Below are positions 14,161 through 35,049 of a stretch of 35,049 nucleotides of DNA, piece by piece. The stretch comes from an uncultured Verrucomicrobia subdivision 3 bacterium (GTDB lineage: Bacteria; Verrucomicrobiota; Verrucomicrobiia; Limisphaerales; UBA11358): contig CAISEZ010000059.1 of assembly GCA_903884535.1 (NCBI GenBank), positions 1-35,049 on the forward strand, in the 5' to 3' direction. Each line of letters starts with the position of its first letter. Positions within the stretch are counted from its first letter, which is position 1. The translations under genes and the position numbers were made by a program. The notes below the pieces were generated by a model, which had not been told where the DNA came from, made no database searches, and saw only the letters and a program-made list of their open reading frames with translations.

Positions 14161-14190
14161 AACGCGCCATTTTTCAATGGCGCGTTTTTT
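14161..14190 (+). terminator. Rho-independent terminator after aceE
   Basis: AACGCGCCAT (14161-14170) pairs perfectly with ATGGCGCGTT (14177-14186), extendable by one T-A pair to an 11-bp stem with a TTTC loop. The T run reaches 14190. It lies between convergent genes and its T run overlaps the stop codon of the minus-strand gene. In the minus direction no clean T tract follows, so it mainly serves aceE. Confidence 0.9.
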
Positions 14191-20200: not shown

Positions 20201-20390
20201 GATTTACTTTTATTTTCGCGATGGAAACGTCGCGGCCAAGCTGCTGGGAAATTTGTTTCACCGCCACGCTGCGGAGGATTGGCGGCAAAATGAGAAAGCC
20301 GACCACCGTGTAAAAAAACAAAAGTCCCAGCGTCCAAAGAATGAGTTTGCGTTGTCGGGGTGTGAGCGAACTCCAAATGACGGCCTTCAT
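17271..20390 (-). CDS. DUF748 domain-containing (AsmA/TamB-like) envelope protein
   Basis: The protein is 1039 aa from the ATG at 20390. A TTG at 20405 in frame would add five residues. One membrane segment (about 15-37) follows a short basic N terminus. The rest is predicted periplasmic, rich in beta strands and in short amphipathic blocks like those of AsmA-like proteins, which carry or organise lipids between the two membranes. The opening QISQQLGRDVSIAKIKVNPF and the RMNQDGTFNFSDI block are typical of DUF748. Near the C terminus the stretch FAPGNAELSPDNMKKLDSLV looks like an OmpA-type domain. Exact function is unknown. The gene follows, in transcription order, the 80-nt gap after the kinase locus. 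Confidence 0.78.
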   Translation of the reverse strand: MKAVIWSSLTPRQRKLILWTLGLLFFYTVVGFLILPPILRSVAVKQISQQLGRDVSIAKIKVNPFVLSVTVDGLLIKDKDGEPFVSWDEVYVNFQLASCFGKAWVFKEISTTKPYVSVRMNQDGTFNFSDILTKFSTNAPAVAAAPKPAGKPFILHVDRLHIGRASAALADFTTREPFKRIVGPLDITLDNFRTDPDNKNPYSFSGTTDAGEMISWSGFFSLTPLRSEGELKLFHFTLNKYAPLYQDLVRFQIRDGTIALDTKYRMELSATNRVAAVEDSAFALRDFKIGVSGDSNNLVDLPLFNVTGANVDLQKHQASVNSIMAADGKLFLSRSKTEAINLVEISKPPATAANASGGILLLLHSVTNAVAMLLNSTNQWSGTIHEVAVTNCALHVEDLVNSRPAKLDLDQISLNAKNISNIPGTNLTATLSLRWNTNGSINTAVTASFLPPTADINLALTNLNLGTLDPYLEPMVNLLILDSRLGLDGQIHLRTPPGELPAVTFHGNARLDDLHTVDGETAEDLLKWGSLRFNAIDANLNPPTVAIQEIAVDNAYVRVVIETNKAINLITALHPANASSPTETNAPVVVKYSAAPATNSLPKISIASIVLTNAQINFTDRSLTPNVNLAVQQASGTIAGISTEDLQHADLNLHALVDNVGPVDITGHINPFSGTQTNQIKISLKDMDLTPASPYAGKFAGYRITRGKLNLDLEYNLVGKKLASKNVITLDQFTFGEKVQSPDATHLPVRLAIAILKDREGKIVLDVPIEGSLDDPKFRIGKVVVRVIENILVKVATSPFSLLGAAFGGGGEEMSYQDFAPGNAELSPDNMKKLDSLVKGLNERPALQLAIAGSVDPVNDRDGLQRAGLDRQLRAKKWLSLRKSEQGTNTVDQVILTPDDRASLVKKLYAEALSGKITPAILATNTDLAAIAAQIPSRSSQIKKGATLLMNPVETAPAMPAVVLAPLKLAAPADPKEALLAALIPVNDGDLATLAATRAKAVQAYLVATGNVEAARLFLTESQTGGVRSDGSRVYLQFQ

Positions 20391-20485
20391 AATTCCAATG
20401 CCCAAAGCATCCGGCTAAATGCCGGCGACGTCAATTCAGGAAGCAACCGTCCGGCGTGACGCAATTTACCGGCCGCGTGTTCCGG

Positions 20486-22432
20486 CTAGGCCTGGTCAAG
20501 GATGCCCCGCACGGTGCGAACAATTTCATCGAGTTGGTAAGGCTTGGTGATCAGTCCCGCGGCGCCTTCCTGCCGGGCGCGATCCGCCAGATTCTGGCCG
20601 CCATAACCGGTCGTGAGCAGCACCGGGATTTGGAGATTGATGGCGCGCATTTGTTTCAGGCATTCCCATCCGCCCATGCCGGGCATGCCGAGATCCATCA
20701 CCACGAGTCGAATGGCATTATCCGATTCTTTGAAACGAAGCAGCGCACTTTCCCCGTCGCTGGCGGAAATGACCGAGTAACCGAGCTTGCTGAATGCCCG
20801 CTGCACCACGGTCCGTATGGGCGCTTCATCATCCACGATGAGCAGGGTTTCATTCCCGCTCGGCGCGGTGGACTTGGTTTGGGGCGATACTGTCACCGTT
20901 CCGCCGATAGCTTTCAATACGGGGAACAAAAGTTTGAAAGTGGTTCCGGCGCCGACTTCGCTGTGGCATAAGATGAGGCCGCCGTGATCTTTGATGATGC
21001 CGTAAACCACGGCCAGCCCCAGCCCGGTGCCCTCGCCGACTTGCTTGGTGGTAAAGAACGGTTCGTAAATCCGCTGCATGGTTTGCTCGTCCATTCCGTG
21101 GCCGGTGTCCGACACGGATACCTGAACGAACGCGCCGGGTTGCAGTTCCGGATGCGGCCGGCAGTAGGCGGCATCCAAATGCACATTGCGGGTTTCCAGC
21201 GTGAGCGCACCGCCGGCGGGCATGGCGTGGGACGCATTCACGGCCAGATTCATGAGGACTTGGTGCAGTTGATCGGCCGAACCGTGGATCAATGACAAAT
21301 CCTCCGCGAGCTTGGTGCCCAGCGTGATGTTTTTCGGGAACACGCGCTGGAGCATTTTTTGCAGGTCCCGGATCAACTCGTTAAAACGCAGCGAACGCTT
21401 TTCTTGTTTGGCCACGCCTTTCCGGCTGAAGGTCAGGAGTTGGCGCGACAACGCCGCGCCGCGATCCGCCGACTCGGAAATCAGATCCGCAAATTCCCGC
21501 TGCTCGCCGCCGGTCGGGGCATCATTCCGGATCATTTCCGCGCAGCCGGAAATGGCCATGAGCAGGTTGTTGAAATCATGCGCGATGCCGCCGGCCAGCG
21601 TGCCCATGGCTTCCATTTTTTGCGCGTGTAAAAATTCCCGCTCGAGCAATTTCTGTTCGGTCTGGTCCCGCGCGATGTGAACCACATGGAGCAGGTTCCC
21701 CTCCGCGTCGGTCACCGGAGTGCCGGTCAGCAGATAGTCGGTGGCCGGAGCGCGATAATTTTTCTCGGCCGAGACCGTTGTGCCCGTCTGGATCGCCTGC
21801 AGAATCGGACAGTTCTCGCAGGGCTCGCCGGCACAGTGGAAAAGTTCGTAGCAGCGCCCGCCGATAATTTTTTCCAGCGGCTGCTTGAGCGCCTTGACCG
21901 TCGCCGCATTGGCGCGGATCACTTTCAAATCCGGACTCAACAGGGTCACCACATCCGAGAAGGAATTGAACGTGCGTTCCCAATCCTCTTTGGCCAGCCG
22001 GGTTTCCTGCTCTTTGGCTTTGAGCAACTGGGCGGACTCCGCCACGCGCAGCATGTAGCGGAGGCGATGCGTTTCCACCGCCCAGTTGAGCGGTTTGGTG
22101 GCGAAATTGGTGGCGCCGGCTTCATAGGCCCGGGTGATCGAATTATGATCCTCCAGCGAAGTGGCCATCAGCACTGGAACATCCGCGCTGGCCGGATGGG
22201 AACGCAGCCGGGAGCAGAATTCAAAACCATCCATACCCGGCATCATCACATCCAGAATGATAATGTCCGGCAGCCGCTGCGCGATGGTTTTCAGGGCGTC
22301 GGTCGGATTATTGAACGTCTCCACCTGAAAACCCAGTTCCGCCAGCACGCCCTCGGCCAGCATCAACACGGTTTCGTCGTCATCCACGACCCAGACTCTT
22401 TTTTGAACTTCGTCCCTGGTTGGTGTTTTCAT
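20486..22432 (-). CDS. Soluble hybrid kinase: REC-PAS-HisKA-HATPase-REC
   Basis: The protein is 648 aa with no membrane segment. An N-terminal receiver (about 12-128) has phospho-acceptor D61 in DIIILDVMMPGMDG. A PAS domain (about 150-255) carries a cysteine cluster in CYELFHCAGEPCENC (194-208), a pattern known from PAS domains that follow F(S)HC-type motifs. The kinase has H285 in AHDFNN, typical of the HisKA subgroup in NtrB-like hybrid kinases, and an HATPase with GTGLGLAVVYG. A second receiver at the C terminus has D580 (VVMDLGMPGMGG). It has no DNA-binding or enzymatic output domain. It lies 112 nt downstream of the HPt-bearing kinase and its receivers are natural targets of that HPt. 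GGAG precedes the ATG by about 10 nt. Confidence 0.9.
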   Translation of the reverse strand: MKTPTRDEVQKRVWVVDDDETVLMLAEGVLAELGFQVETFNNPTDALKTIAQRLPDIIILDVMMPGMDGFEFCSRLRSHPASADVPVLMATSLEDHNSITRAYEAGATNFATKPLNWAVETHRLRYMLRVAESAQLLKAKEQETRLAKEDWERTFNSFSDVVTLLSPDLKVIRANAATVKALKQPLEKIIGGRCYELFHCAGEPCENCPILQAIQTGTTVSAEKNYRAPATDYLLTGTPVTDAEGNLLHVVHIARDQTEQKLLEREFLHAQKMEAMGTLAGGIAHDFNNLLMAISGCAEMIRNDAPTGGEQREFADLISESADRGAALSRQLLTFSRKGVAKQEKRSLRFNELIRDLQKMLQRVFPKNITLGTKLAEDLSLIHGSADQLHQVLMNLAVNASHAMPAGGALTLETRNVHLDAAYCRPHPELQPGAFVQVSVSDTGHGMDEQTMQRIYEPFFTTKQVGEGTGLGLAVVYGIIKDHGGLILCHSEVGAGTTFKLLFPVLKAIGGTVTVSPQTKSTAPSGNETLLIVDDEAPIRTVVQRAFSKLGYSVISASDGESALLRFKESDNAIRLVVMDLGMPGMGGWECLKQMRAINLQIPVLLTTGYGGQNLADRARQEGAAGLITKPYQLDEIVRTVRGILDQA

Positions 22433-22544: not shown

Positions 22545-25500
22545 TCAGGTGGACGCGATTTTTATGTTTTCCAAGTTCGCGCGCAATTGGTCCAGAAGTT
22601 CGGGAGTCGCTGCCAGATTTTTTTCGCGGCCGGCGAGTTCCAGCCGGCTGGCGCTTTCGCGCACGGCGTCCGCCGACACGTTGGCGGCGGAACCTTTGAT
22701 GCGGTGCGCGACCAACTCGACGCGACTGGCGTCGCGTTCGCGAATCGCCGTTTCCAGTTCCAGCACATCGGCACCGGCTTGAATGAGTAGTTTTTTAATC
22801 AGGCGCTGGGCCAGTTCATTTTTCCCCATGCAACGGTGCAATAAACTGGGATAGTCAATGCCTGCTGGCGATCTGTCAGCGTGGCTGGCTTCAGCGGGAT
22901 GGTCATCTGTTCGCGGGTTTGCAGCCATGGCCGCCGGCATCCAATGCGCCAGCATCTTGGCCAGCACACCGGGTTCCAATGGCTTGGTGAGATAATCATC
23001 CATGCCGGCTTCGAGGCACCGCGAACGGTCGCCGATCATGGCGTGCGCCGTGAGCGCCACAATTGGCAGATGCGGTTTGCGACCGGCGACCGGCGCAACC
23101 TGCTGTTCCCATTGCCGGATGAGCCGGGTGGCTTCGTAGCCGTCCATCTCCGGCATCTGGCAATCCATCAACACCAGATCCGCCACGCCTTGTTGCGCGA
23201 GTGCCAACACTTCGCGGCCGGTTCGGACGCGCACGCACCGGTAGCCCAGCGCGGCGACCATTTCGCCGGCGACTTCTTGATTGATCTCATTGTCTTCGGC
23301 GAGAAGGATGGTTCCCGAATTTTTCATGGCCACAACTCCGTCGGCCGGCAACCGGGGCAGCGCCGGCAATTTTGAGAGCTGTGGAGATTGTTGATTCGCC
23401 GCCCGAATAATGGCGTCGTAGAGTTCCGACTTGCGGGCCGGCTTGGGCAGCCAGGCGGTAAAGCCGGCGGTTTGGCATTCCTCGGCCAGATTTGTTTGGG
23501 AGAAGCTGCTCAGCAAAACCAGGCCGGTGGCGCGCAAGGCCGATTCCTGCTTGATCAGCCGAGCCAGGGCAAAGCCGTCCAAACCGGGCATGTGCCAATC
23601 AATCACGGCGACAGCAAAAGGCTCGCCGTGCGCCGACGCCTGGCGGAGTTTTTCCAGACCGGCGGCGGCATCCGCGGCTTCTGCCGGCACGCCTTTCCAA
23701 GTGCGCACATAGTCGCAAATGATTTCCCGCACCACCTGGCAATCATCCACCACCAGCACGCGTAGGCCCCGGAAATCTACGAGGGCGGAAGCGGTGGCGG
23801 CTTGCTCGGGGTCGGCGGTTTTTTTAAAGCGGGCGGTGAACCAAAACGTGGAACCTTCGCCGGGAACACTCTGCACGCCGATCTGCCCGTCCATCAACTG
23901 GACCAACTGCCGGCAAATGGTCAGGCCCAGGCCGGTGCCGCCGTGGGCGCGGCTCATGGAATTGTCCGCCTGGCAAAACGCATCGAAAATCAGCGACTGC
24001 TGTTCAGGTGCGATGCCCGCACCGGAATCCTTTACTGCAAACCGCAGCAGCGTTGAATCGTCGCGGGTATCCGCCACGGTGCAGGAGACGAGCACCGTGC
24101 CGTGGTCGGTGAATTTGACGGCGTTGCTCAAGAGATTGAGCAGCACCTGGCGCAACCGGTTGGGATCGCCTGACAGTTGCCGGGGCACTTCGGGTGCCAA
24201 GTGGCAGGCAATTTCCAAGTTCTTGACTTCCGCTTTTTCCGCCAGCAAACCGACCGCCATGTCCAGCGTGTCGGGCAGCGAAAATGCGGTTTCGTTCAAC
24301 TCCAGTTTGCCCGCCTCAATTTTGGAAAAGTCCAGCACGTCGCCGATGACCGACAGCAGCGCGTCGGCCGAAGTCAAAGTATTGCTCACATAGCGGCGCT
24401 GTTTTTCGTCGAGCGGCGTGTGCTGCAATAATTGAAGCATGCCCATGACGCCGGTGATCGGCGTCCGGATTTCATGGCTCATGTTGGCCAGGAATTGGGA
24501 TTTGGCCAGACTGGCGGATTCGGCCGATTCTTTTGCTCGGAACAGGGCATCCTGTGTGCGCTGGCGGGAAATGGCCGCGCCCAGCATGTCCGCCGCCGCG
24601 CGCAAACTGTCGCGCTCCGCCTCCGTCCACTGGCGGGCAGCGTGGCAGTCGTCCAACCCCAAAAATCCCCACCAGACATTTTCGACGCGAATGGGAATCA
24701 GCAGCACGGAATAAATGCCGAGGGGTTCGAGCACCGCCCGTTCGGGTGGCGTCCAAGTCGGGGAGGAAATCGCGACGAATTCGCCGCCCTGGAGTTGCGC
24801 GGCCCAGTGGGTTAATCCGGTCCGGCTCCAGGAAAAATTTTGCAGGTCCGGATTGGTGGCGTGCGACTGAACCCCGTTGTCATTCCAGACAAACCGCTGG
24901 GAAGTCAGCGCGCCGCTCTCGTCCGCATGATTTTCAAAAACGCAGACCCGGCTGGCCGTTGCTGCCGAACCGATCGTGGCCAGCACTTCGGGAATGACGG
25001 TTTCCCAGTTCGAGGTGTTGAGGAATTGTTGCGCCGCAAACCGGACGCTTTGCAGGATGCGGTCGCGGTGCCGGAGCGCTTCGGTCATGGCGTTCACAGA
25101 ACCGGCCAGATTGCCGAGTTCGTCGCTGCTCTCGATTTCCGCCCGCGCCGACAGGTCGCCGCCGGCCACTTGCTGGAGCACTTGGCGGAGACTCAAAATC
25201 GGGCGGACGAGCCGCTTGGCATAGACGACCGAAGCCAGCAGGCTCAGGGCCACGCAACAAATTGCCAGCAGCCCGGTGCGGTGATAGACCATCGCGACGT
25301 TCCGATCATAACTTTCCAGCGAGAGGCCGACGTGAATCCAGCCCCACTGGATGCCGGAGTAATCAAACGGTTGTGAATAATGAAATACCCGGCGGTTGAA
25401 CAGCGGCACGACGCCGATGCCGCTGACCGGCTCGCGTTTTTCCGGCCGCCAGGTTTTGTCGGCATCCGCTTCCATGCGCCAGCCGCCGATCCGGTCGAAC

Positions 25501-25808
25501 CTCACCGAGAAGCCGTCATTCTTGGTGACCACGATGTAGTCCAACGATTCGTCCCCGGCGAGCATGTCTTTGCAGTGGTCCACCACGCTGCTGTAATCCT
25601 CGTTCACGGCGGCGCCGGCGGCCACTTCGTGCAGCGACACCGCCACGCCGTGCGCTTTGGATTCAAGGTTCTCCAGAAAAATCCGTTTTTGCTGCGGGAT
25701 GATCACAAGGACGAAGAGCAGCAAGGTCGCGCTGGTGACAAGCCACGACAGCAAGGCCGTGCGCAGAGTGATGCCCAGTGTCCATGATTTTATGCGTTTC
25801 GGTTTCAT
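22545..25808 (-). CDS. Membrane hybrid sensor kinase: TM-periplasmic sensor-TM-HAMP-GAF-HisKA-HATPase-REC-REC-HPt
   Basis: The protein is 1087 aa with BarA/EvgS-like organisation. TM1 (about 15-37) and TM2 (about 178-197) bracket a periplasmic sensor of about 140 residues, followed by HAMP (198-250), a GAF-like domain (about 258-415), HisKA with H445 in ANMSHEIRTP, and an HATPase (NAVKFTDHG, GGTGLGLTICRQL). The first receiver has D737 in VAVIDWHMPGLDG and the second D882 in LVLMDCQMPEMDG. The HPt domain has H1035 in AHRIKGSAANV. All relay residues are intact, so a full His-Asp-His-Asp route is possible. It lies 85 nt after the six binding-protein genes. I infer that its periplasmic part reads one or more of them. 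No output regulator is adjacent. Confidence 0.93.
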   Translation of the reverse strand: MKPKRIKSWTLGITLRTALLSWLVTSATLLLFVLVIIPQQKRIFLENLESKAHGVAVSLHEVAAGAAVNEDYSSVVDHCKDMLAGDESLDYIVVTKNDGFSVRFDRIGGWRMEADADKTWRPEKREPVSGIGVVPLFNRRVFHYSQPFDYSGIQWGWIHVGLSLESYDRNVAMVYHRTGLLAICCVALSLLASVVYAKRLVRPILSLRQVLQQVAGGDLSARAEIESSDELGNLAGSVNAMTEALRHRDRILQSVRFAAQQFLNTSNWETVIPEVLATIGSAATASRVCVFENHADESGALTSQRFVWNDNGVQSHATNPDLQNFSWSRTGLTHWAAQLQGGEFVAISSPTWTPPERAVLEPLGIYSVLLIPIRVENVWWGFLGLDDCHAARQWTEAERDSLRAAADMLGAAISRQRTQDALFRAKESAESASLAKSQFLANMSHEIRTPITGVMGMLQLLQHTPLDEKQRRYVSNTLTSADALLSVIGDVLDFSKIEAGKLELNETAFSLPDTLDMAVGLLAEKAEVKNLEIACHLAPEVPRQLSGDPNRLRQVLLNLLSNAVKFTDHGTVLVSCTVADTRDDSTLLRFAVKDSGAGIAPEQQSLIFDAFCQADNSMSRAHGGTGLGLTICRQLVQLMDGQIGVQSVPGEGSTFWFTARFKKTADPEQAATASALVDFRGLRVLVVDDCQVVREIICDYVRTWKGVPAEAADAAAGLEKLRQASAHGEPFAVAVIDWHMPGLDGFALARLIKQESALRATGLVLLSSFSQTNLAEECQTAGFTAWLPKPARKSELYDAIIRAANQQSPQLSKLPALPRLPADGVVAMKNSGTILLAEDNEINQEVAGEMVAALGYRCVRVRTGREVLALAQQGVADLVLMDCQMPEMDGYEATRLIRQWEQQVAPVAGRKPHLPIVALTAHAMIGDRSRCLEAGMDDYLTKPLEPGVLAKMLAHWMPAAMAANPRTDDHPAEASHADRSPAGIDYPSLLHRCMGKNELAQRLIKKLLIQAGADVLELETAIRERDASRVELVAHRIKGSAANVSADAVRESASRLELAGREKNLAATPELLDQLRANLENIKIAST

Positions 25809-25893: not shown

Positions 25894-26838
25894 TCATGGG
25901 GATGGTTTCTTCCGCAAGGACTCATACTTCGCCCGTAATTTCTGCACTGGCAGGAGTTGCGCTTCGTTCAGCGGAACAAACTTGTCCAATTTGAACAGGG
26001 TGAGAATCTGCTGTCCGGCGGGCGTGAGCGGCATTTCGTTCAACGCTTTGATCGCATCGGCTTTGGCGTGCGCATTCGCCCAGCCTTTGTCGCTCAAGCA
26101 GACCACGATGCTGTTAAAGTTTTCGGAAGCCAGCACCACTTGCAGTCTTTGGCCAACTTGCGGATTCAACTCTTTCATCACTTCAAAGCTTCCCTCGTCC
26201 ACCACACAGGCCGATTTTTTGCCGAAGAACACCGGCAAAACCGCCGCCGTCGGCTTGGCCACTTCCTCGACGCTTGCAAAAAAAGTTTCCGGGCGACCGA
26301 GGTGGGCGGCCATCAACTCCGTGGCGAGCCAGTGTTCACCGACGTTTTCGCAGGCCGTGTCCAATTTGACAATGGCTTGTCCGCGCAAATCGGCCAAGGT
26401 CTTGAGTCCGCTGTCGCGGCGGGTCAGCACGAGATACTTCCGGCCGATCTTTCTGTTTTCCGAAATGGTAAAAAACATTTTCACCTGCGGATGAATGTCC
26501 ATCGCGAGATATTGCCAGGCGTCCATGACCAACAGGCTGATGGGTTGCTGCCGGATGGCGGACTCGAAGGTGGGCGTGTCCTCAAAAATCTGCACGTCGC
26601 TCACGATTTTGTAACCGTAATTGAGACTTTCGCTTTCGAGAAAGGCGCGAAAGGCGGCGGCCGCATCGTTGTGGTTCACGTTGTGGAAGCTGGCCTCAGC
26701 CATGCCCACATGAAAAATGATCGGCTGGGTTTCCAGGTTCGTCTCGGCTGACCGCGCGGGCGGCGGTGACCAAAGCAGCAGCGCCAGCGCTGTCAGCAAA
26801 CAACACTCCGGCCATCGGTTGAGGCACAGCCTGGTCAT
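25894..26838 (-). CDS. PhnD-like periplasmic binding protein, copy 1 (subgroup A)
   Basis: The protein is 314 aa with a signal peptide (about 1-31, cleaved near PARSA-E). It belongs to the PhnD/phosphate-phosphonate binding protein superfamily and shares with its five neighbours VNHND (54-58), AVLPVFFGKKSACVVD and KELNPQVGQRLQVV. It lacks the STSG ligand loop of true PhnD; that place reads KLDTACENVGEHWL. With copy 2 it forms a subgroup marked by VMDAWQYL or IVDAWQFL and a RAKYESL tail. A near-perfect Shine-Dalgarno (AAGGAGGTTGA) inside the end of copy 2 precedes it, and the two genes overlap by ATGA. With no permease or ATPase nearby, a sensory role is more likely than transport. The ligand is unknown. 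Confidence 0.8.
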   Translation of the reverse strand: MTRLCLNRWPECCLLTALALLLWSPPPARSAETNLETQPIIFHVGMAEASFHNVNHNDAAAAFRAFLESESLNYGYKIVSDVQIFEDTPTFESAIRQQPISLLVMDAWQYLAMDIHPQVKMFFTISENRKIGRKYLVLTRRDSGLKTLADLRGQAIVKLDTACENVGEHWLATELMAAHLGRPETFFASVEEVAKPTAAVLPVFFGKKSACVVDEGSFEVMKELNPQVGQRLQVVLASENFNSIVVCLSDKGWANAHAKADAIKALNEMPLTPAGQQILTLFKLDKFVPLNEAQLLPVQKLRAKYESLRKKPSP

Positions 26839-27800
26839 GGTTCAACCTCCTTTTGTAACGACTCATACTTCGCCCGTAATTTCCGGATGGTGTCGAGTTG
26901 CGCGTCCGCGAACGGAACCATGCGGTCAATTTTGAATAGCGTGCAGATCTGCTGGCCGGCCGGATCCTGATCCAGTTCCTCCAGCGCCGTGATCGTATCG
27001 GCCTTGAGCTTGGCCGAGCTCCAATGTTCTTCGCGCAGGCAGACCACGACATCGACGTAAGTGTCGGAGCAGGCTACCACCTGAAGTTGCTGGCCGACCT
27101 GCGGATTCAATTCCTTCATCAAGTCAAAGCCCGCTTGGTCCACCACACAGGCGGGGGTCTTGCCGAAGAAAACCGGCAGCACCGCCTCCGTGGGTTTCGT
27201 CACCACCTTGACGTGGCCGAAGAAGGTTTCCGGAGTGCCCAGCTTTTCGGAAAGCAGCAAGGTGTCAAACCAGGCTTTGCCCACGCCGGCACCGGCGTAT
27301 TCCAATTCCAGGATGTCTTTGCCGCGCAGGGCTGCCAGGTTGGTGAGGCCGCTGTCGCAGCGGGTCAGCACCACATATTTTCTCCCCATCTTGCCGTTCT
27401 CCACGACGGTGAAAAACGGCTTCACCTGCGCATGAATGTTCATCGTGAGAAACTGCCAGGCGTCCACGATCGTCACATTCATGGGCTGACGCTGAATCTC
27501 CGCTTCGAAGGTGGGCGTGTCATCATAAACCACCGGATCGGCTTTGTAGATGTTGCCAAACCGGCGGCCGCAGCTTTCCAGAAAACCCCGGTAGGCGGCC
27601 ACGGCGTCGTTGCGGTTCACATTGCGGAAACAGACCTTGGCCATGCCCACCGAGAAGATGTCCATCGCGGGTGCCTGATTCGTTTCAGCGGAACGACCAT
27701 GCCACGAAGGCCAAAAAAATAACGACAGTCCCAGCACTCCTGCCAATGGCAGGCAGAGTCTGACTGGCCGGAATAAAAATATTTTTTTAGCGTGATTCAT
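26835..27800 (-). CDS. PhnD-like periplasmic binding protein, copy 2 (subgroup A)
   Basis: The protein is 321 aa with an N-terminal signal or anchor (about 12-37, GRSA-E). It is closest to copy 1: VNRND (61-65), MNVTIVDAWQFLTMNIHAQVK, GRKYVVLTRCDSGL, AVLPVFFGKTPACVVDQ, KELNPQVGQQLQVV and a C terminus with LRAKYESLQKE. The loop that holds phosphonate in PhnD reads ELEYAGAGVGKAWF. It starts 6 nt after the end of the frameshifted copy 3, with no obvious Shine-Dalgarno, so translation probably depends on coupling. Its stop overlaps the start of copy 1. The ligand is unknown. Confidence 0.8.
   Translation of the reverse strand: MNHAKKIFLFRPVRLCLPLAGVLGLSLFFWPSWHGRSAETNQAPAMDIFSVGMAKVCFRNVNRNDAVAAYRGFLESCGRRFGNIYKADPVVYDDTPTFEAEIQRQPMNVTIVDAWQFLTMNIHAQVKPFFTVVENGKMGRKYVVLTRCDSGLTNLAALRGKDILELEYAGAGVGKAWFDTLLLSEKLGTPETFFGHVKVVTKPTEAVLPVFFGKTPACVVDQAGFDLMKELNPQVGQQLQVVACSDTYVDVVVCLREEHWSSAKLKADTITALEELDQDPAGQQICTLFKIDRMVPFADAQLDTIRKLRAKYESLQKEVEP
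26842..26852 (-). promoter_or_regulatory. Strong Shine-Dalgarno for binding-protein copy 1
   Basis: AAGGAGGTTGA on the minus strand matches the anti-Shine-Dalgarno almost fully and ends 3 nt before the ATG at 26838. It lies within the last codons of copy 2. This predicts strong independent initiation on copy 1, unlike copies 2 and 3, which have none. The very short spacing measured from the end of the match is normal if pairing uses the GGAGG core. Confidence 0.6.
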
Positions 27801-27806
27801 GTTGAA

Positions 27807-28827
27807 TCAAGGTTTGAGATGAGACAGCTGGCCGTTCGCCGCCGGCCCGTGGACAGAGCGTGCATACTCCGCCAGCAATTGCCGACTACTCTCCAGAATG
27901 GCGACTGGGCGTTTCAACATGCCGTCACTTTGAAACACGGTCAGCACCTGGAGGCCGGCGGGGGATTCGCCCAGTTTCAGAATGGCGGGTTCCATTTGTT
28001 TGCGCACGCTTGCGGTGTAGCCCGGCCGGAAAAAAAAACAGCGACGGAATCACTTCCGGTGAGACAGCCAGCACCCGGAGTTCCTTGCGCAGTTGCGGAT
28101 TGAGCTCGCAGGCCAGGTCAAAAACATTGGAGGTGACCAGGCAGGCGTCGGCCTGATGGAAAAAAACCTGGAGCACCGCTTTGGAGGGACTTTCGATTTT
28201 CGTCATCGTTCCCAAAACCTGTTCCGCCGGTCCGAGTGAACTGCGCGCCAGCAGCACGTCCAGCCATTGTGACGCGAGACTGGTGCGCGCGTTGGCTTCC
28301 AGCACTAGTTTTCGTCCGGCCAAACCGGCCACTTGGTTGATGCCGCCGTCGCACTGCACCAGCAGCACATATTGTTCGGTCATCAGATGGTCCTTGGTCG
28401 CCAGGAAAACTTCAGCGGGCTGGAGCTCCGGGTCCAGCGTCAGGAACTGGTCGGTGAGCATGGACACCGCGTCAATGGACCCGTTCTTCAGGGCCTGGTG
28501 CATTTCTTCCGGGGTTTCAAACAGTTGCGTGTCCACGGCAGCGTTGATCTGGCTTTGTTCCAAAATGGTTTTGGCCCAGACCGAAATCGCCGCCTTCCCG
28601 TCGTTGGGGTTCACGCCTGACCAGGTGCCCGGCGCGATGCCAATGTGGATCACCACCGGCGCGGGCGGGTTGGTTTGGTTCGCGTCAGCAGCGGTGGCGG
28701 GAACGGTGCTGAGCCAAGCCACCAGTGCGGTGGCGGCCCAGATGATTGACCGCGTTGCGCGGATAATGACTGTTTTTTGTGACTGTATAAAAGGGGAAGA
28801 TTTCATGGTTATATCTTGATTGGACAT
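27807..28827 (-). pseudogene. PhnD-like periplasmic binding protein, copy 3 (subgroup B), interrupted by a +1 frameshift at T9
   Basis: The open frame from 28827 gives 300 aa and ends at 27925 with a tail unlike its paralogues. After the phenylalanine run at residues 264-266, a different frame continues RPGYTASVRKQMEP...SPAGLQVLTVFQSD, exactly as in the sister genes, to a stop at 27807. Removing one T from the nine Ts at 28038-28030 restores a 339-aa protein, the same length as copies 4-6. Signal peptide, VNPND (72-76), ARTSLASQWLDVLL, VLQVFFHQADACLVT and CELNPQLRKELRVL are intact. The gene starts directly after the stop of copy 4; an ATG at 28806 is an alternative. It may be a real mutation, transcriptional slippage or an assembly error. 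Confidence 0.75.
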
Positions 28828-29850
28828 TTATTTTGCACTTCCTTCCGACCCGCCCGGCGCGCTGCCCGATTCCGCCGCTGCAATTTTAATTTGATTCGTC
28901 CCGGCACGGAGTTGCTGATAGGTGGAGATGAATGTTCGTGTGCCTTCCAGCGCGGACAGGGGCTGGCGCACAAGGCTATCCGTTTTGAACAGCGCCATCA
29001 ACTGCTTGAATTCAGGTTTGACGGAGGAAAGATCCACCGCCTTGATGATCTTTTCCTTGAAACTGTCGGTGAAACCGCTGCGGAAACAAGTCAGCGTGGG
29101 CACCAATGGTGGTGAAACCGCGATGACGCGCAACTGCTTTTTCAATTGTGGATTCAACTCGCACATCACCTCCCAGCCGGCGCGTGTGACAATGCACGCA
29201 TCCATTTTGCGGAAGAATACCGGCAACACCACCTGGGTGGTTTTCGAGTGGTGTGCGATTCGCGCGAGCACGCCCGCCGCCGGTCCCAGTCCGTGCTCGC
29301 GGCACAACACCTCCAGCCATGCGCTGGCCAGCGAGTTCCGCGCGTCGCTGGCCACAATCAGGCTGCGACCGGTCAAATCCTCCACCTGGCTGATGGTGCT
29401 GTCCGTGCGCGCCAGCAGCAGGTAATCTTCCGTGTAAGCGTTTTGGACTTTGGACAGCAGCAACGGCCCTTCCAGCCCCAGTTTTTCCAGGGCGAAAAAT
29501 TCCTCGGCGGTCAGGATGAGCACGTCCGCCTTTTTCTGTTCCAGCAGCCGGGCGATGGCGTTGGTGCCATCGGGCAAATCCGGTTGGTCATACACATAAA
29601 TCCCGTTTTCGTCCCCGATGTTTTGCGTATAAACTTTCATCGCGGCCTTCGCGTCATTCTCGTTGACGTCCACGAACATGGCCTTGGAATAGGCGAAATG
29701 CACTTCCGTGCGCGCAGCGGTCCAGTCAGCATCGCCGGCGAAATCTTGCTGCGCCGCCGCCATCAGCAACCAGATCACCGCCAGTCGGACCCTCAGGCGG
29801 GTGGTCCAGCGCGGCAACCAAATCGCGGCTAGGATAATTGGGGTGATCAT
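28828..29850 (-). CDS. PhnD-like periplasmic binding protein, copy 4 (subgroup B)
   Basis: The protein is 340 aa with a hydrophobic N terminus (about 20-38) serving as signal peptide. Conserved with its neighbours are VNEND (62-66), ADVLILTAEEFFALE, DARNSLASAWLEVL in place of the PhnD ligand loop, VVLPVFFRKMDACIVT, MCELNPQLKKQLRVIAVSP and the C-terminal LMALFKTDSLV. The tail after about residue 310 is low-complexity (Ala, Gly, Ser). It overlaps copy 5 by ATGA and has a strong Shine-Dalgarno, AGGAGGAG, at 29865-29858. No transport partner is nearby. The ligand is unknown and the changed loop argues against simple phosphonate binding. Confidence 0.82.
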   Translation of the reverse strand: MITPIILAAIWLPRWTTRLRVRLAVIWLLMAAAQQDFAGDADWTAARTEVHFAYSKAMFVDVNENDAKAAMKVYTQNIGDENGIYVYDQPDLPDGTNAIARLLEQKKADVLILTAEEFFALEKLGLEGPLLLSKVQNAYTEDYLLLARTDSTISQVEDLTGRSLIVASDARNSLASAWLEVLCREHGLGPAAGVLARIAHHSKTTQVVLPVFFRKMDACIVTRAGWEVMCELNPQLKKQLRVIAVSPPLVPTLTCFRSGFTDSFKEKIIKAVDLSSVKPEFKQLMALFKTDSLVRQPLSALEGTRTFISTYQQLRAGTNQIKIAAAESGSAPGGSEGSAK

Positions 29851-30839
29851 GGCTGGACTCCTCCTCTTAACATTCGCGGCGCACCAGCCTGGGACAACGA
29901 GTTTGACGCGCCGGCGCGATTGACGAGGCGTGCCTGCAAGGCGAGCAACTCCAGCGCGCTGTCCAGGCAGGAAGCCGGCTGATCTTCCACTTTTTCACTT
30001 TGGAAAATTGTCATCACCTGAAGCCCGGCGGGTGTCTTGTGCAGATCCCGCAGCGCGGAATACAACTGCTCCTTGAACGTCGGCGCATAGTCGGCCCGAA
30101 AACAAAACGACGACGCCACCAGCTCGGGCGACCGGCTGAGAATCTTGAGCTGCTGGCCGATTTGCGGATTGAGTTCGCACATTGTCTCATACTCGGTGCG
30201 CGTGGCCACGCAGGCATCAATCCGATGAAAAAACACCGGCAGGATCACCTGAGCCAGTTTCGGCGATTGCGTGATTTGGCCAAACCACCCGGTGGCGGGC
30301 AGGCCGTCTTCCTGAAGCAGCAGCGTGTCTAGCCACGGCTGCGCCAGGCAGACTCGCGAGTTCAGATGCAACACCAGGCTCCGTCCGCGCAGGTCTCCCA
30401 AACGTTCAAGCTTGCTGTCGCGGTGGACGAGAAGCAGATATTGCTCCCGCGTTCGCCCGGAGTTGTGAGTGACAAAGATGGGATTGAATCGCACTTCCCG
30501 GCTCAAGGCGGCGTATTCAACCATCGTAATTCCGACGGCATCCACCGATTTATCTTTCAGCGCTTGCAATATTTCCGAGGTGCTTTGGAAAATGTGCGAG
30601 CCCGTAACCGTGGGGATGCCGCGTTCCTTGGCAATGGTCTGACCCCAGACTTTCACGGCGGCCTCGGCGTCGTTTTCATTGACGTCAGTGAACAGCGAGT
30701 GCGAGAAACCGACGTGGAAGGTGTTGGTATCCGGTTCCGCCGCCTGACTGGCGCGCAAAAAAACAGCCGCCAGCAAAATCAGCCGGATGAAAAATCCAAG
30801 CGGCGATCGAGCGGCGTGAGGCGGTGGGCACTGTTTCAT
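29847..30839 (-). CDS. PhnD-like periplasmic binding protein, copy 5 (subgroup B)
   Basis: The protein is 330 aa with signal peptide 1-34 (ASQAA-E). Shared features are VNEND (53-57), VDAVGITMVEYAALS, LNSRVCLAQPWLDTLLLQ at the ligand-loop position, VILPVFFHRIDACVAT, MCELNPQIGQQLKIL and AGLQVMTIFQSEKV. The two cysteines of the DAC and MCEL motifs are 11 residues apart, as in copies 3, 4 and 6. A Shine-Dalgarno GGAGGAGC (30853-30846) precedes the ATG. Both ends overlap neighbouring genes by ATGA. The ligand is unknown. Confidence 0.82.
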   Translation of the reverse strand: MKQCPPPHAARSPLGFFIRLILLAAVFLRASQAAEPDTNTFHVGFSHSLFTDVNENDAEAAVKVWGQTIAKERGIPTVTGSHIFQSTSEILQALKDKSVDAVGITMVEYAALSREVRFNPIFVTHNSGRTREQYLLLVHRDSKLERLGDLRGRSLVLHLNSRVCLAQPWLDTLLLQEDGLPATGWFGQITQSPKLAQVILPVFFHRIDACVATRTEYETMCELNPQIGQQLKILSRSPELVASSFCFRADYAPTFKEQLYSALRDLHKTPAGLQVMTIFQSEKVEDQPASCLDSALELLALQARLVNRAGASNSLSQAGAPRMLRGGVQP

Positions 30840-31861
30840 GGTTTAGCTCCTCCGGATTCGGGGTGAACGTTCTCACTTTGTTCGGCAAGTGTGCGACTCT
30901 CGGCGGCAGCGACCTTGAGACGTTGGTGGACAGCCAGCAAGTCGCGGGCGCTGTCCAGAAGCGTTGCCGGCGCCTCTTGTAGCTGGTCGCTTTGAAACAG
31001 CGTCAACACTTGCGTTCCGGCCGCAGTCTGCTCCAGGCCCTTTAGTGCGGCCAACATCGCAGCGCGCAACGGTGATACATAGGTGCGCCGAATGAAGCCC
31101 ACCGCCGGCACCAGTTTCGGCGACGTGGCCAAGATGCGCAGTTGCATGCGCACCTGCGGATTTAATTCGCACATGGTGTCGAAGCCACGCCGGGTGACGA
31201 GGCACGCGTCCTGTTGGTGAAAGAACACCGGCAGCACCACCTTGACTAATTTCTGCGCTTTGAGCACTTGGCCAAAAAAGCCGGCGGGGACGCCTAGATG
31301 ATTTTGCAATAGAATCACCTCCAGCCACAACGGCGCGAGCGACGCTCTAGGATTCTCGAATAGAATGATCTTGCGGTTGTGCAGTCCGTCCAAATTGGTG
31401 ATGAGCGAGTTGGCATTAACCAACAACAGGTATTCTTCCGTGAATTGGCCGCCAATGAAGGACATAAACAAATTGGTGCTTTGCAATTCCAGATCCAAGC
31501 CGAGGTATTCTTCCGTGGTCACGGCCGCACCATCAATCGTGGCGTCGTATAATGCCTGTTTTAGTTGTGCCGTGCCCGCAAGCACAATCGGTTCGGTGCT
31601 CATCGGCACCTGTCGTTCCCGGGCGATCGCCAAGGCCCATGCCTTTACCGAAGCCTTGGCGTCGTTTTCTTTGACATCCGTGAACATTTGGGACGAGAAG
31701 GCAAATCGAATGGGTTCCAAATGATTCGGTTCCGGCGCGTCCGCACCCCGGACGCGCATCGGCACACTGATCAACAGCAACAGCACTATCAGGCAGGTCC
31801 ACGCCACTCCGGCGGGCGTCGTCGGCCCCGGCAATTTTTTGCTGTAAGGCGCAGAAATCAT
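30836..31861 (-). CDS. PhnD-like periplasmic binding protein, copy 6 (subgroup B), first of the array
   Basis: The protein is 341 aa from the ATG at 31861. The frame stays open further upstream, but that part only shadows the kinase gene, and the signal peptide (about 18-40, RVRGA-D) fixes the start. It has VKEND (63-67), DGAAVTTEEYLGLD, NPRASLAPLWLEVILLQ, VVLPVFFHQQDACLVT, MCELNPQVRMQLRILATSP and AGTQVLTLFQSDQL. Its ATG overlaps the stop of the CHASE8 kinase gene (ATGA), which ties the binding-protein array translationally to the YfiR/kinase module. GGAG lies about 11 nt before the ATG. The ligand is unknown. Confidence 0.82.
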   Translation of the reverse strand: MISAPYSKKLPGPTTPAGVAWTCLIVLLLLISVPMRVRGADAPEPNHLEPIRFAFSSQMFTDVKENDAKASVKAWALAIARERQVPMSTEPIVLAGTAQLKQALYDATIDGAAVTTEEYLGLDLELQSTNLFMSFIGGQFTEEYLLLVNANSLITNLDGLHNRKIILFENPRASLAPLWLEVILLQNHLGVPAGFFGQVLKAQKLVKVVLPVFFHQQDACLVTRRGFDTMCELNPQVRMQLRILATSPKLVPAVGFIRRTYVSPLRAAMLAALKGLEQTAAGTQVLTLFQSDQLQEAPATLLDSARDLLAVHQRLKVAAAESRTLAEQSENVHPESGGAKP

Positions 31862-34242
31862 TTTGTTTTGGCTCCGTTGTTGGCCGTCGTCGCTTGACGA
31901 TTCGTCTGCCACCGTTGCAGTGTCCGGGCCACTTCCTCCGGATTCAGCGGCTTGGTCAAATAATCGTCCATCCCGGCCGCCAAACAGAGTTCGCGATCGC
32001 CCGTCATCGCATTTGCCGTCATGGCGATGATCGGCAAGCGGCGGGCGGCCAGACCGGCGGCGGACTGGCGGGCTTCTTCCGCGCGGATGGCCCGCGTGGC
32101 CGCATAGCCATCCATTCCCGGCATCATGCAATCCATGAACAACAGGTCAAAGCCACCTTCGCGAACCGCTTGCATGGCTTGCTGACCGTTGCTGACACAT
32201 TCGCATTCATAGCCGGAACACTGGATGATTTCACGAGCCAGTTCCTGATTAATCTCGTTGTCCTCGGCCAGCAGCACCCGTTTGGTGTCGGTCGCCGACC
32301 ACGGGCCGGAGGTCGGCAAAAGATTGGCGCCGGTGGTCAGCTTCGAACTTTCACCTTCAGTCATCCGCGTCGCTTTTTTGAACGGCGCTTCAAACCAAAA
32401 AGTGCAGCCCTGGCCAACGGTGGTTTCGACGCCAATGCTGCCACCCATCAATTCCACCAGTTGTTTGCAGATGCCTAGGCCCAGGCCGGTGCCGCCGTGC
32501 CGGCGCGTGCTGGAGTTGTCCACTTGGGAAAATGGTTTGAACAACTGTTCCCGTTGCTCCGGGCTCAAGCCATCGCCAGTGTCGGCCACTTCAAAACGAA
32601 CCACGGCGATTTTCACCGCTTCAGATTTGAGCGTGACCCGGAGGCTGACGGTTCCGGCATCCGTGAACTTGACGGCATTGCCCAGCAGGTTGCCCAGCAC
32701 TTGAGCGAGCCGGTCCGAATCCGCTTCCACCACTTGCGGGACGGTGGAAGCAATGGTCAGATTCCAAGCCAGCTTTTTGTGGGCCGCCTTGTGCGCAAAC
32801 GCGGCGGCGATCTGTTGAATCGTCGTGGGCAGTTGAATCGGCGTGGTCTGCAGGTCCAGCTTGCCCGCTTCGATTTTTGAGAAATCCAAAATGTCATTGA
32901 TCACGCGTAGCAACGTGTCGGCCGAGCTTTGCGCCATGTCCATCCAGCGCCGTTGCTGGTCGGTGGGGAGTTCGGGCCGCAACAGGTGCAGCATGCCGGT
33001 GACGCCGTTGAGCGGCGTGCGGATTTCATGGCTCATCACGGCAAGGAAACGCGACTTGGCCTGGCTGGCGGCTTCCGCGGCCAGCTTGGCTTGATTCAAT
33101 TCCCGCGTCCGCTCGCTGACCTTGATTTCCAGTTCATCGAATGCGTGGGCCAACTGCTGCTCGGCCCGTTTGCGCGCGGTGATGTCGAGGCACAACGCCA
33201 GTCGGGCTGGCTGGCCGGAAAACTCGATGCGATGGCTGGCCACGTCCACCTCGATGACCGTGCCATCGCGTTTGCCATGCCGGATTTGGCGCGCGGAAGC
33301 GGTCAAAGATTTTTCGTCGGGAGCATTGGCCGCATCCGGCTCCGGCTGACCGGGGGCCGCAAGATCACTGAATTTTATCTGCCGAAATTCAGCCGCCGAA
33401 TAGCCGTAGTGTTGGCGCGCTGCTTGGTTAACCGCGAGAATGGCCGAGGTCGCTTCCGCATAAACAAACATCGGCAGCGGATTGCTCTCGAACAGCAGGC
33501 GGTAACGTTCCTCCGAATCGCGCAGCGCGCCGTCCTGCTCGTGAATGCGCCCGAGCATCTGGTTGAACGCCTGGGTAAGCGTGCCGAGTTCATCGGCACT
33601 GCTGGATTCGGCGCGCACGGTGTAATCCTTATTTTCCGCGACCTGCCGAGCCGTCGAAGTCAGTTGCAGAATGGGGGCGGTGATGACGCGTTGGAAAGCG
33701 GAGGAAACCACGATGGCCGCGAGCAGGGCGGCGAGTAAGCTGCCACCGAGAATGATGATAAACGGCAAAATAATTTCTCGCTCCATCGCGCGGGAGTCGA
33801 ATCTCAAGTAGAGTGTGCCAATGTTTTTCCCATCCAACATCACGGGCCGGAGCAACACGAGTTGCGATCCTTCAATGCGAAAACCCACCGGCAAAGGGGC
33901 GGGGGGGAGTTCATCATTTTTTGCTACCGATCCGTAATGCGCGAAGAGTTGCCGGTCGGGCAGAAACAGCGAAGCCCCCAACACATGGGGTTGGGCCTTG
34001 AGCGCGGCCAATACTTCATTGCCCGCTTTCTTGTCTTCAAAGGTCAGGGCGGCGGTGCTGTTGGCAGCGATGATTTTCGCCTGCACTTCCAGGGTGCGTT
34101 GGATGGTCGCCCGGGCGTTGAACCATTGGAAAATCAGCAGGCTTACGGACCCCAGCAACAGCGTCACCATGCTGGCACCGATAATGGTCAGCATCACCTT
34201 GCGCTTGATCGGTAGGTCGCGAAATGGTTTAAGCATGGTCAT
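31858..34242 (-). CDS. Hybrid sensor kinase: TM-CHASE8-TM-HAMP-PAS-HisKA-HATPase-REC
   Basis: The protein is 794 aa. TM1 (about 15-38) and TM2 (about 157-180) enclose a domain of about 115 residues (TIQRTLEVQAKIIAANSTAALTFEDKKAGNEVLAAL...) that matches CHASE8, the periplasmic sensor known from the diguanylate cyclase YfiN. HAMP (182-236), PAS (about 243-362), a coiled coil, HisKA with H405 in AVMSHEIRTP, HATPase (GGTGLGLGICKQL) and a receiver with D704 (LLFMDCMMPGMDG) follow. There is no GGDEF domain and no HPt, so phosphate must pass to another protein, possibly the HPt kinase at 22545. It starts 5 nt after the YfiR-family gene and overlaps the first binding-protein gene. A second ATG lies two codons in. 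Confidence 0.92.
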   Translation of the reverse strand: MTMLKPFRDLPIKRKVMLTIIGASMVTLLLGSVSLLIFQWFNARATIQRTLEVQAKIIAANSTAALTFEDKKAGNEVLAALKAQPHVLGASLFLPDRQLFAHYGSVAKNDELPPAPLPVGFRIEGSQLVLLRPVMLDGKNIGTLYLRFDSRAMEREIILPFIIILGGSLLAALLAAIVVSSAFQRVITAPILQLTSTARQVAENKDYTVRAESSSADELGTLTQAFNQMLGRIHEQDGALRDSEERYRLLFESNPLPMFVYAEATSAILAVNQAARQHYGYSAAEFRQIKFSDLAAPGQPEPDAANAPDEKSLTASARQIRHGKRDGTVIEVDVASHRIEFSGQPARLALCLDITARKRAEQQLAHAFDELEIKVSERTRELNQAKLAAEAASQAKSRFLAVMSHEIRTPLNGVTGMLHLLRPELPTDQQRRWMDMAQSSADTLLRVINDILDFSKIEAGKLDLQTTPIQLPTTIQQIAAAFAHKAAHKKLAWNLTIASTVPQVVEADSDRLAQVLGNLLGNAVKFTDAGTVSLRVTLKSEAVKIAVVRFEVADTGDGLSPEQREQLFKPFSQVDNSSTRRHGGTGLGLGICKQLVELMGGSIGVETTVGQGCTFWFEAPFKKATRMTEGESSKLTTGANLLPTSGPWSATDTKRVLLAEDNEINQELAREIIQCSGYECECVSNGQQAMQAVREGGFDLLFMDCMMPGMDGYAATRAIRAEEARQSAAGLAARRLPIIAMTANAMTGDRELCLAAGMDDYLTKPLNPEEVARTLQRWQTNRQATTANNGAKTK

Positions 34243-34247
34243 CCGGG

Positions 34248-34871
34248 TTAGTGAACCGTCTCCACGAGACGCACGGTGGGCAGGTTAAGCAGCCGGGAAC
34301 TGATTTGCACGCCAGCAATCCGGGCGGCGGTGGGATTGATTTCCGGGTGAACGGTGCCGCTGGTTGACAGCACCAAGTTGATCATGCCGCCTTGTTCGCA
34401 AAACCGGTCGAGGTCGCTGACGGTCAGGACGGGTTTGTTTTTCAAAGCCGCGAGCAAGGTCGGCAGGTGATCTTTCTCCGAACGACTAATGAACAAAACG
34501 TGGCAGCCCGAGAAACCTTCGCCGTTGTTGAAGCACTTCACCACGAGTGCGTGGCCATTAACCGCCTCGCCTTTCACCAGTTCGTCGAGCGTGCGGTTGA
34601 AGGGATTTTCGCCGACCACGCCGATGACAATGGGTGCCGTGGCATTGGTAAATGCCGAAGCCGGCCAGTCGGTGAACTTGACGAAGTTAAATACAAAAGT
34701 AGCCTTGAGCTGATACTCCGTCAGGCCGGGAGCAGCCACCGCCGTGAGATTGGCCACCAAAACCAAGACAGTAAACATGCGCAGAACCACACGGATGAAC
34801 CGGACCAGCACAATCCTCCGGGACACGCCGACTGGCATGGCTCCGGGGAATAAGTTGGTCGTTCGGGTCAT
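34248..34871 (-). CDS. YfiR family (DUF4154) periplasmic protein
   Basis: The protein is 207 aa from the ATG at 34871. A basic stretch and hydrophobic core (about 30-47, cleavage near AVAA) form a signal peptide; an internal ATG at 34778 (M32) is an alternative start. Mature-part blocks are typical of YfiR: EYQLKATFVFNFVKFTDWP (52-70), IVIGVVGENPF, CHVLFIS, VLTVSDLDRFCEQGGMINLV and a C-terminal NPTAARIAGVQISSRLL. Cysteines 113 and 123 could form a disulfide. In Pseudomonas YfiR binds and inhibits the CHASE8-containing cyclase YfiN. Here the next gene is a CHASE8 histidine kinase, the likely partner. The gene starts 4 nt... after the receptor stop, with only ACCA-type bases between, so it should be translationally coupled. 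Confidence 0.88.
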   Translation of the reverse strand: MTRTTNLFPGAMPVGVSRRIVLVRFIRVVLRMFTVLVLVANLTAVAAPGLTEYQLKATFVFNFVKFTDWPASAFTNATAPIVIGVVGENPFNRTLDELVKGEAVNGHALVVKCFNNGEGFSGCHVLFISRSEKDHLPTLLAALKNKPVLTVSDLDRFCEQGGMINLVLSTSGTVHPEINPTAARIAGVQISSRLLNLPTVRLVETVH

Positions 34872-34875
34872 TGGT

Positions 34876-35049
34876 TCAAAAATGATAGGTCAGTTTCACG
34901 CGGAACTGCCGCCCGGCCTGCGGAACGCTGTCCAGCACAAAATCGCTGCCGACAGGGTCGCCGTATTGTTTGTCAAAAATGTTGTAGATGCTGGCGGAGA
35001 GGTCGAGGCCTTTGATAATTTCCCGGCTGAAGAGTGTAAAATTAGCCAC
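34876..35049 (-). CDS. TonB-dependent receptor, C-terminal end (gene continues beyond the window)
   Basis: The last 57 codons of a larger gene are visible on the minus strand, ending at a TGA at 34878-34876. The peptide contains GLDLSASIYNIFDKQYGDP and QAGRQFRVKLTYHF: the near-terminal strand with NIFDKQY and the final aromatic residue are the usual end of a TonB-dependent outer-membrane beta-barrel. Receptors of this kind import siderophores, vitamins, metals or oligosaccharides using TonB energy. Which one cannot be told from this fragment. Its 4-nt distance to the YfiR-family gene suggests one operon that includes the downstream kinase and binding proteins. Confidence 0.85.
   Translation of the reverse strand: MANFTLFSREIIKGLDLSASIYNIFDKQYGDPVGSDFVLDSVPQAGRQFRVKLTYHF

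Follow-up and report, generated by a model that had tools for sequence, protein, structure and literature searches.

Binding-protein genes and the linked sensor gene

The window analyzed here (35,049 bp) is the entire contig C59 of a 3.9-Mb, 165-contig genome of an uncultured Verrucomicrobia subdivision 3 bacterium. Its minus strand carries six consecutive genes for PhnD-like periplasmic binding proteins (P1 to P6) followed by a gene for a histidine kinase with a Cache-like periplasmic domain (referred to as S domain and S-kinase). We consider it fairly probable that these genes encode a multi-input three-component sensor, in which the six binding proteins feed the one downstream Cache-domain kinase. 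The genes, with their PF12974 scores, are P1 (30836..31861; 56.8 bits, scanned from a later start), P2 (29847..30839; 77.6 bits), P3 (28828..29850; 59.7 bits), P4 (27925..28827; 49.3 bits), P5 (26835..27800; 69.4 bits), and P6 (25894..26838; 65.5 bits); P2 was modeled by AlphaFold2 with a mean predicted local distance difference test (pLDDT) score of 91.6. All six are above the Pfam cut-off (49 to 78 bits versus 27) and are the sole PF12974 matches in the whole genome, in agreement with an initial annotation of the window that listed six consecutive PhnD-like genes. P2 to P6 are 26 to 40% identical to P1, and the alignment of P1 to P6 contains the three motifs that had been claimed for all of them, i.e., V-x-x-N-D, V-x-[PQ]-V-F-F...A-C, and E-L-N-P-Q. 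As had also been noted, the start of P1 overlaps the stop codon of an upstream CHASE8 kinase gene (ATGA). The tight spacing proposed for the whole array holds for the 4-nt overlaps and a 0-nt junction but not for P4, which as annotated stops 124 nt short of P5. P4 contains a frameshift at a run of nine T, after which the C-terminal part is found in a different frame as far as about 27807; this remainder gives a second-frame PF12974-type match of 47 bits at 27810-28049. The break may be an assembly error or a true mutation, and slippage at the T run could possibly serve as an on/off switch.

The S-kinase gene (22545..25808, minus strand), with its annotated ATG separated from P6 by an 85-nt gap, encodes a protein that based on Pfam contains a transmembrane (TM) helix, the Cache-like sensor, a second TM helix, HAMP, GAF, HisKA, HATPase_c, two receivers, and Hpt. 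The S domain, as followed in profile rounds, corresponds to 25269..25718 (minus strand), including parts of the flanking TM helices. Its AlphaFold2 model has a mean pLDDT of 93.6, and its fold matches those of the WalK, Tlp3, CitA, and DcuS sensors. Judged from this model, the S domain is Cache-like, and the S-kinase has a Cache fold between two TM helices before HAMP. PF17203 (sCache_3_2) gave a weak signal in 31 of 48 S proteins at E-values up to 1 (best, 2e-7) and in 4 of the 48 at 0.001, with the window protein not among the 31. Downstream of the S-kinase lies a gene for a receiver-PAS-HisKA-HATPase-receiver protein (20486..22432, minus strand; Pfam), and this gene order is the same in G006/L017.

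A scan of one genome per species across 84,980 species, seeded with two peptide patterns and therefore blind to relatives misfitting them, identified 67 array loci (numbered with an L). Based on the names in the sequence records, these represent 12 phyla (Thermodesulfobacteriota, 25 loci; Acidobacteriota, 14; Verrucomicrobiota, 6; Pseudomonadota, 6; Myxococcota, 3; seven others, one each), while 6 loci are unassigned. The S and PhnD sequences of L067 (named Calditrichota) and L068 (named Actinomycetota) are nearly identical, and thus some bins may carry a wrong phylum label. Iterating a sensor-domain profile seeded from the window S-kinase gave 52 proteins, i.e., those of the window and L017 and one in each of 50 of the 67 loci. 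In these 50 loci, a PhnD gene lies directly upstream of the S gene on the same strand. A conserved neighborhood, which the initial annotation had suggested looking for in other Verrucomicrobiota, is present in these public loci, with the same kind of sensor gene. Nine of the 17 loci lacking an S gene end within 600 nt of the last copy. L079, L080, L082, and L085 have additional PhnD genes on the downstream side of the S gene. The Desulfovibrionales arrays at L023, L025, and L030 are followed by receiver/kinase genes, and no S domain was found there.

The S gene products are signaling proteins, mostly kinases: 42 of 48 S proteins contain HATPase_c, 6 contain GGDEF, and 6 contain EAL. GGDEF-type motifs are present at L072, L073, L075, L079, L080, and L082 (Desulfovibrio type and Thiodiazotropha type), matching the six GGDEF/EAL proteins, and PhnD-type receptors may feed cyclic di-GMP enzymes at these loci.

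Searching from the side of the S domain, we identified 28 sites in 24 genomes chosen from the array loci, with PhnD directly upstream at 27. While 24 of these sites were already known through PhnD, four are independent, and PhnD is present at three of them (L101, L123, and L124) and absent from one (L125). Besides the draw centers, draws of 288, 395, and 297 genomes yielded the strong sites L088 to L092 and L133, all with PhnD; L092 is the same as L049, already known through PhnD, and the other five are new. Altogether, PhnD is directly upstream at eight of the nine S sites not found through PhnD. Four weak matches from the draws (L134 to L137) are other Cache-type domains, two of them beside a weak PhnD-like gene. 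The cassette is rare, with strong matches in 6 of 977 drawn genomes (draw centers left out). Among 85 strong PhnD matches (at least 169 bits) in the 24 genomes picked for arrays, 79 by hand count are on S-gene contigs in arrays, adjoining the same kind of sensor gene; the scattering of the genes that the initial annotation had named as a refutation of its reading was thus not observed in these genomes. The remaining six are on G350:C502 (three; the L024 contig, cut at its edge), G359:C180, G359:C8, and G354:C83; 11 weaker matches (at most 70 bits) in the same genomes are other family members or array fragments. Distances between S domains correlate with those between PhnD copies over 1,128 pairs from 48 loci (Spearman 0.82 using the closest PhnD pair; 0.76 using the mean). 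Given the spread of the linkage across phyla, mere chance is an unlikely explanation for it. PhnD-kinase pairs extend beyond the array family: other single distant PhnD-like genes lie beside kinases or weakly similar Cache-type proteins at L127 (3376-6374), L129 (3311-6141), L136, and L137.

Receptor types and their order

Sequence sets were compiled for the S domains (A2, 47 of the 50 locus S domains plus the window, with the partial matches L072, L073, and L075 left out; A4, 39 of those 47 plus the window), for the S proteins (A5, 47 of 50 plus the window, with L047, L063, and L068, which are cut by contig ends, left out), and for the binding proteins (A3, the six window proteins and 108 of 148 others). 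Counting full-length copies and excluding fragments, we found one copy in 18 of the 50 S-gene arrays, two in 10, three in 9, four in 10, and five, six, and seven in one array each; five arrays may be cut at the 5' side. Thus, 32 of the 50 have at least two full-length copies. The longest array, at L077 (8886-15317) in a Tepidiphilus-named genome, has seven tandem PhnD genes before the S protein.

From 172 PhnD reading frame matches, 154 copies with stretches over 200 profile positions entered the trees; L017 was left out as a duplicate of L065, the two contigs agreeing in length and layout. The clades A to D were named from a maximum-likelihood tree that covered 82 copies: those of the window, of 30 loci selected for being close to it, and of the outgroups L043 and L069. 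Support in the Shimodaira-Hasegawa-like approximate likelihood ratio test (SH-aLRT) was 99 for type D, 100 for C, and 97 for B, and was lower for A (85). In the window, P1 is outside types A to D, P2 is type B, P3 belongs to a clade termed "A2" together with L024_p2 and L031 (SH-aLRT 99), P4 is type C, and P5 and P6 are type D, giving the order unplaced, B, A2, C, D, D. All 14 loci in which two or more of these types occur keep the order A-B-C-D (ten of Thermodesulfobacteriota, three of Verrucomicrobiota, and the window); P1, the A2 clade, and a type E are outside A to D and were not counted in these 14 loci. The Acidobacteriota arrays L039, L040, L046, and L047 also end in type D, preceded there by a different type. 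Single-copy loci differ in type (B in L033, L037, and L044, the last of which is perhaps cut), and no type therefore seems indispensable. Among the carriers with a strain name, Malonomonas rubra DSM 5091 has types B, C, D, and D (L034), and Desulfoluna limicola ASN36 has one copy (L056).

In the 154-copy tree, 128 copies come from 40 multi-copy loci, and for just 25 of them the nearest relative is inside their own array. Reciprocal-best copies keep their order in 174 pairs and violate it in 8 (66 and 5, respectively, between phyla), while in 500 position shuffles the concordance averaged 0.5 and reached at most 0.64 for all pairs and 0.85 between phyla. As judged from these sequence comparisons, the four receptor types A to D are anciently diverged, and copies group mostly by position rather than by genome. 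Trees, types, and order therefore support the earlier suggestion of several diverged binding proteins per kinase. The ratio of nonsynonymous to synonymous substitution rates (dN/dS) was 0.10 to 0.41 in 16 of 17 pairs of related arrays and not computable in one; no pair includes the window. These ratios indicate purifying selection on the related arrays over the positions that entered the comparison.

If every copy bound the same ligand, duplication would only raise the amount of receptor. Tandem layout and sister copies within one array (L034_p3/p4, P5/P6 of the window, and L083_p1/p2) are compatible with such a dosage effect. However, the nearest relative of most copies is in another locus, type and order are kept, and a column of the ligand pocket has a type-specific residue (see below). 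We consider this alternative improbable, and dosage amplification as the whole story was rejected on the copy trees and order.

Searching 58 other genomes of relatives with a P1-P6 profile gave one further copy, in G006, which is among the 35 further genomes of this genus; as in the window, this copy is followed by the S-kinase and the receiver-kinase protein. Island acquisition inferred from base composition was rejected (guanine-plus-cytosine content 0.57 to 0.59 for the array and 0.55 to 0.61 for the window), and because the array is not distinct in this respect, transfer has to be argued from the tree and from how rarely the genes occur in the genus. In the S-domain tree, Verrucomicrobiota require 5 changes versus 4.9 with shuffled labels, which speaks for transfer. 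Acidobacteriota cluster (2 changes versus 8.5 shuffled), as do, to a lesser extent, Thermodesulfobacteriota (9 versus 12.5). Over all groups, there are 23 changes versus 31.3, with a value as low in 0 of 200 shuffles, and this lower number indicates that much of the inheritance is vertical.

Neighboring genes, transporters, and related systems

Upstream of P1 on the minus strand are genes for a CHASE8-HAMP-PAS-HisKA-HATPase-receiver kinase (31858..34242; NF053592, 209.5 bits, cut-off 194), a YfiR-like periplasmic protein (34248..34871; PF13689, 148.8 bits; NF053591, 145.7 bits, cut-off 125), and a TonB-dependent receptor (34876..35049). Together with the S-kinase and the receiver-kinase protein, the CHASE8 kinase makes up the three histidine kinases that had been listed for the window, as Pfam also indicates. 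A TonB receptor had been listed as well; its C-terminal end is there, but only the last 57 codons, cut by the contig end. Their 57 residues share 61% identity with the last 57 of a PF00593/PF07715 protein (L031:15229-17304); the piece is short, and a Pfam scan gave no match of its own. The initial annotation described the array as genetically fused to this module; the genes are merely adjacent, and there is no fusion. The YfiR-like protein and the CHASE8 kinase reach both curated cut-offs of the TOL_0243 YfiR-like protein and its associated kinase (NF053591 and NF053592), but differ from that pair in not being a conserved part of the arrays.

A second reading is that the array feeds the upstream CHASE8 kinase in a single device to which the TonB receptor and YfiR also belong, as the initial annotation had it. 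This is consistent with the overlap of P1 with the CHASE8 kinase stop codon. It is also consistent with L031 (9872-19910), which has these genes within about 10 kb and a TonB receptor that is kin to that of the window; there, the order is PhnD, S-kinase, receiver-kinase, TonB receptor, YfiR, and CHASE8 kinase, i.e., the modules of the window in swapped order. However, a YfiR profile built from three sequences and run on flanks of up to 10 kb matched near arrays clearly in the window and at L031, one of the 67 loci, and marginally at L067 (E-value, 1e-4). No YfiR match was found at the G006 locus despite its PhnD gene and S-kinase. Moreover, the same genome has a second TonB-receptor/YfiR/CHASE8-PAS-kinase set without PhnD genes (L018, 2146-8305, on G000:C58), in which YfiR is below the NF053591 cut-off, and triads of this kind may form an independent sensing unit. 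We therefore regard this reading as unlikely. The triad as core of the array was rejected; it is an incidental neighbor, and the conserved partner is the S-kinase on the downstream side. Besides kinases and receivers, no recurrent neighbors were recognized; on visual inspection, several large frame clusters were taken for shadow frames over kinases. Downstream of the cassette, the window contains genes for a DUF748 protein (17271-20405) and a TMEM260-like TPR protein (14189-17110).

P1 to P6 could also be ordinary uptake proteins that use an ATP-binding cassette (ABC) transporter encoded elsewhere, in line with their PF12974 fold and with five BPD_transp_1 matches elsewhere in the genome. In 7,915 reading frames from 1.07 Mb (the 67 loci, the window, L017, and L018), an Escherichia coli PhnC query detected no ABC ATPase except for one ABC-like fragment of 97 residues at the L084 contig edge (E-value, 8.5e-5). 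A search for Walker A plus the signature motif in the same 1.07 Mb gave none. In a control, query and motif recovered three of three ABC ATPases taken from other parts of this genome. The genome has 42 ABC_tran matches, and contig C59 carries none of them. No PhnE match was found near the arrays, in a weak test because the query was the longest open piece of the K-12 pseudogene. The earlier statement that the window has no ABC permease or ATPase therefore stands for the ATPase, and the proposal of a sensory array without a transporter agrees with the lack of a PhnC-type ATPase beside the arrays. In PhnCDE/PtxABC-type uptake, an ABC ATPase is encoded with the binding protein, whereas none was found with the arrays; instead, the linkage is to signaling genes in about a dozen phyla. 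The proteins also score far below the PhnD equivalog TIGR03431 (best, 42.3 bits versus 261.1). An orphan uptake array was rejected, because no linked ATPase was found while the control gave three of three, and uptake through a transporter encoded elsewhere is quite unlikely.

Pocket columns were taken from two alignments with E. coli PhnD, in which the register may be off by one or two residues; PhnD lost 11 residues in the alignment, and later residue numbers are offset by 11. The columns of the AioX/ArrX pocket residues Ser161 and Ser163 are mostly not Ser in types A to D, and His is absent from the four commonest residues in the His192 column of these types. In the comparison with the AioX/ArrX pocket residues Tyr88, Tyr131, and Cys106, a conserved Tyr was observed two columns off PhnD Tyr93, to which it may be equivalent after a shift. 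A conserved Cys is present in 100 of the 154 copies, with Ala in 44. PhnD Asn175 and AioX Asp210 occupy equivalent positions according to the available part of PMC5908839; in this column, 17 of 20 type D copies have Asp, and 28 of 32 copies of types A, B, and C have Thr. Hence, the Ser-x-Ser and His of the phosphonate pocket do not appear to be kept in these alignments, from which we predict new ligands.

The closest known systems are three-component arsenic sensors. In the portion of PMC5908839 considered, AioX-AioS-AioR, ArxXSR, and ArrXSR have one binding protein per cluster, and AioX-AioS is the precedent for a binding protein acting with a kinase. Like AioX/ArrX, the arrays have a PhnD-fold binding protein gene beside a sensor kinase gene. 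They differ in having six binding proteins in the window, and up to seven in typed order in other arrays, where AioX/ArrX as described in that portion have one each, and in not keeping the AioX/PhnD pocket Ser-x-Ser and His in the alignments. No family of arsenic enzymes was noticed among recurrent array neighbors, though no dedicated search was made. By analogy, the array may work like an AioX/ArrX three-component sensor, yet we do not file it as a member, because it lacks the single receptor and the Ser/His pocket. As in TtrS/ThsS, at least in the excerpted account of PMC5408782, a PhnD-like domain would be the input of a histidine kinase; there, however, the domain is fused to the kinase, while here the genes are separate and the kinase has a Cache-like domain of its own. 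Of the 26 families found in 48 S proteins, 25 were listed, and these do not include PF12974. Our search of open-licence PubMed Central (PMC) literature found no paper describing arrays of several ordered receptors that serve a single kinase.

BstB (PDB 7t1m; PMC10942540) resembles the array proteins in fold, in an N-terminal VNxxDA motif, and in E-x-Y in types A and B. It is described together with BstA and BstC in sterol transport, whereas the arrays score at best 21.5 bits against NF045601 (cut-off 350); "histidine kinase" was not found in the main text of that paper. It is highly improbable that the array proteins, instead of sensing small solutes, carry lipids or sterols and at the same time report on envelope lipids. 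BstB is an equally good structural match, but the scores of ArrX, PtxB, and AioX are equal or nearly equal, the Glu is missing from most copies of types C and D, and no recurrent carrier-like neighbor was seen.

Proposed signaling mechanism

The multi-input sensor is supported computationally by the paralogues, their types and order, purifying selection in related arrays, the lack of a linked ABC ATPase, and the strong linkage of S and PhnD. In the proposed mechanism, the six binding proteins, in which N-terminal signal segments are visible, would be exported to the periplasm, where each of them, with or without ligand, would be presented to the Cache-like domain of the S-kinase. This contact would switch the HisKA-receiver-receiver-Hpt relay of the kinase, which would probably pass the signal on to the receiver/PAS/kinase/receiver protein. 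Four ancient receptor types in fixed order, presumably with different ligands for each type, would let one kinase answer several ligands.

Several observations weigh against this mechanism. In the window itself, P4 is broken as assembled. In 18 of the 50 S arrays, some of which may be cut, there is only one full-length copy, and a set of several receptors is therefore not essential. Eight of the 67 loci have no S gene despite at least 1.2 kb past the array (L023, L025, L037, L050, L052, L054, L058, and L084), and at L030, which ends near the last copy, two earlier copies are followed by other signaling genes. Conversely, one S gene (L125, the same as L131) has no PhnD gene. The loci are related, and the pair counts for order are therefore not independent; among the dS values, several approach saturation (up to 3.1). 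The Cache domain might itself bind a ligand. We infer binding to the kinase from gene linkage, and in the part of PMC11113362 considered, three Pseudomonas proteins showed no interaction with the sensor domains of neighboring kinases. Because neighboring receptor and kinase genes are thus sometimes non-interacting, docking is the weakest link.

A more elaborate version of the multi-input sensor can be put forward tentatively. The array would be a horizontally spread input cassette, in which at least four ancient, specialized soluble receptors with their own ligands compete for or jointly occupy one Cache domain, and a single kinase (a GGDEF/EAL protein in 6 of 48 cases) computes the response to the mixture. 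Possibly, the receptors form a hetero-assembly for which the order of synthesis matters.

One type of kinase is thus tied to arrays of up to seven receptors, with types and order shared between phyla. The arrays make signal integration by interchangeable soluble receptors directly testable, and they define a sensor domain to which a partner family is strongly linked. Our analysis suggests that the label "phosphonate ABC transporter substrate-binding protein" on such genes is misleading.

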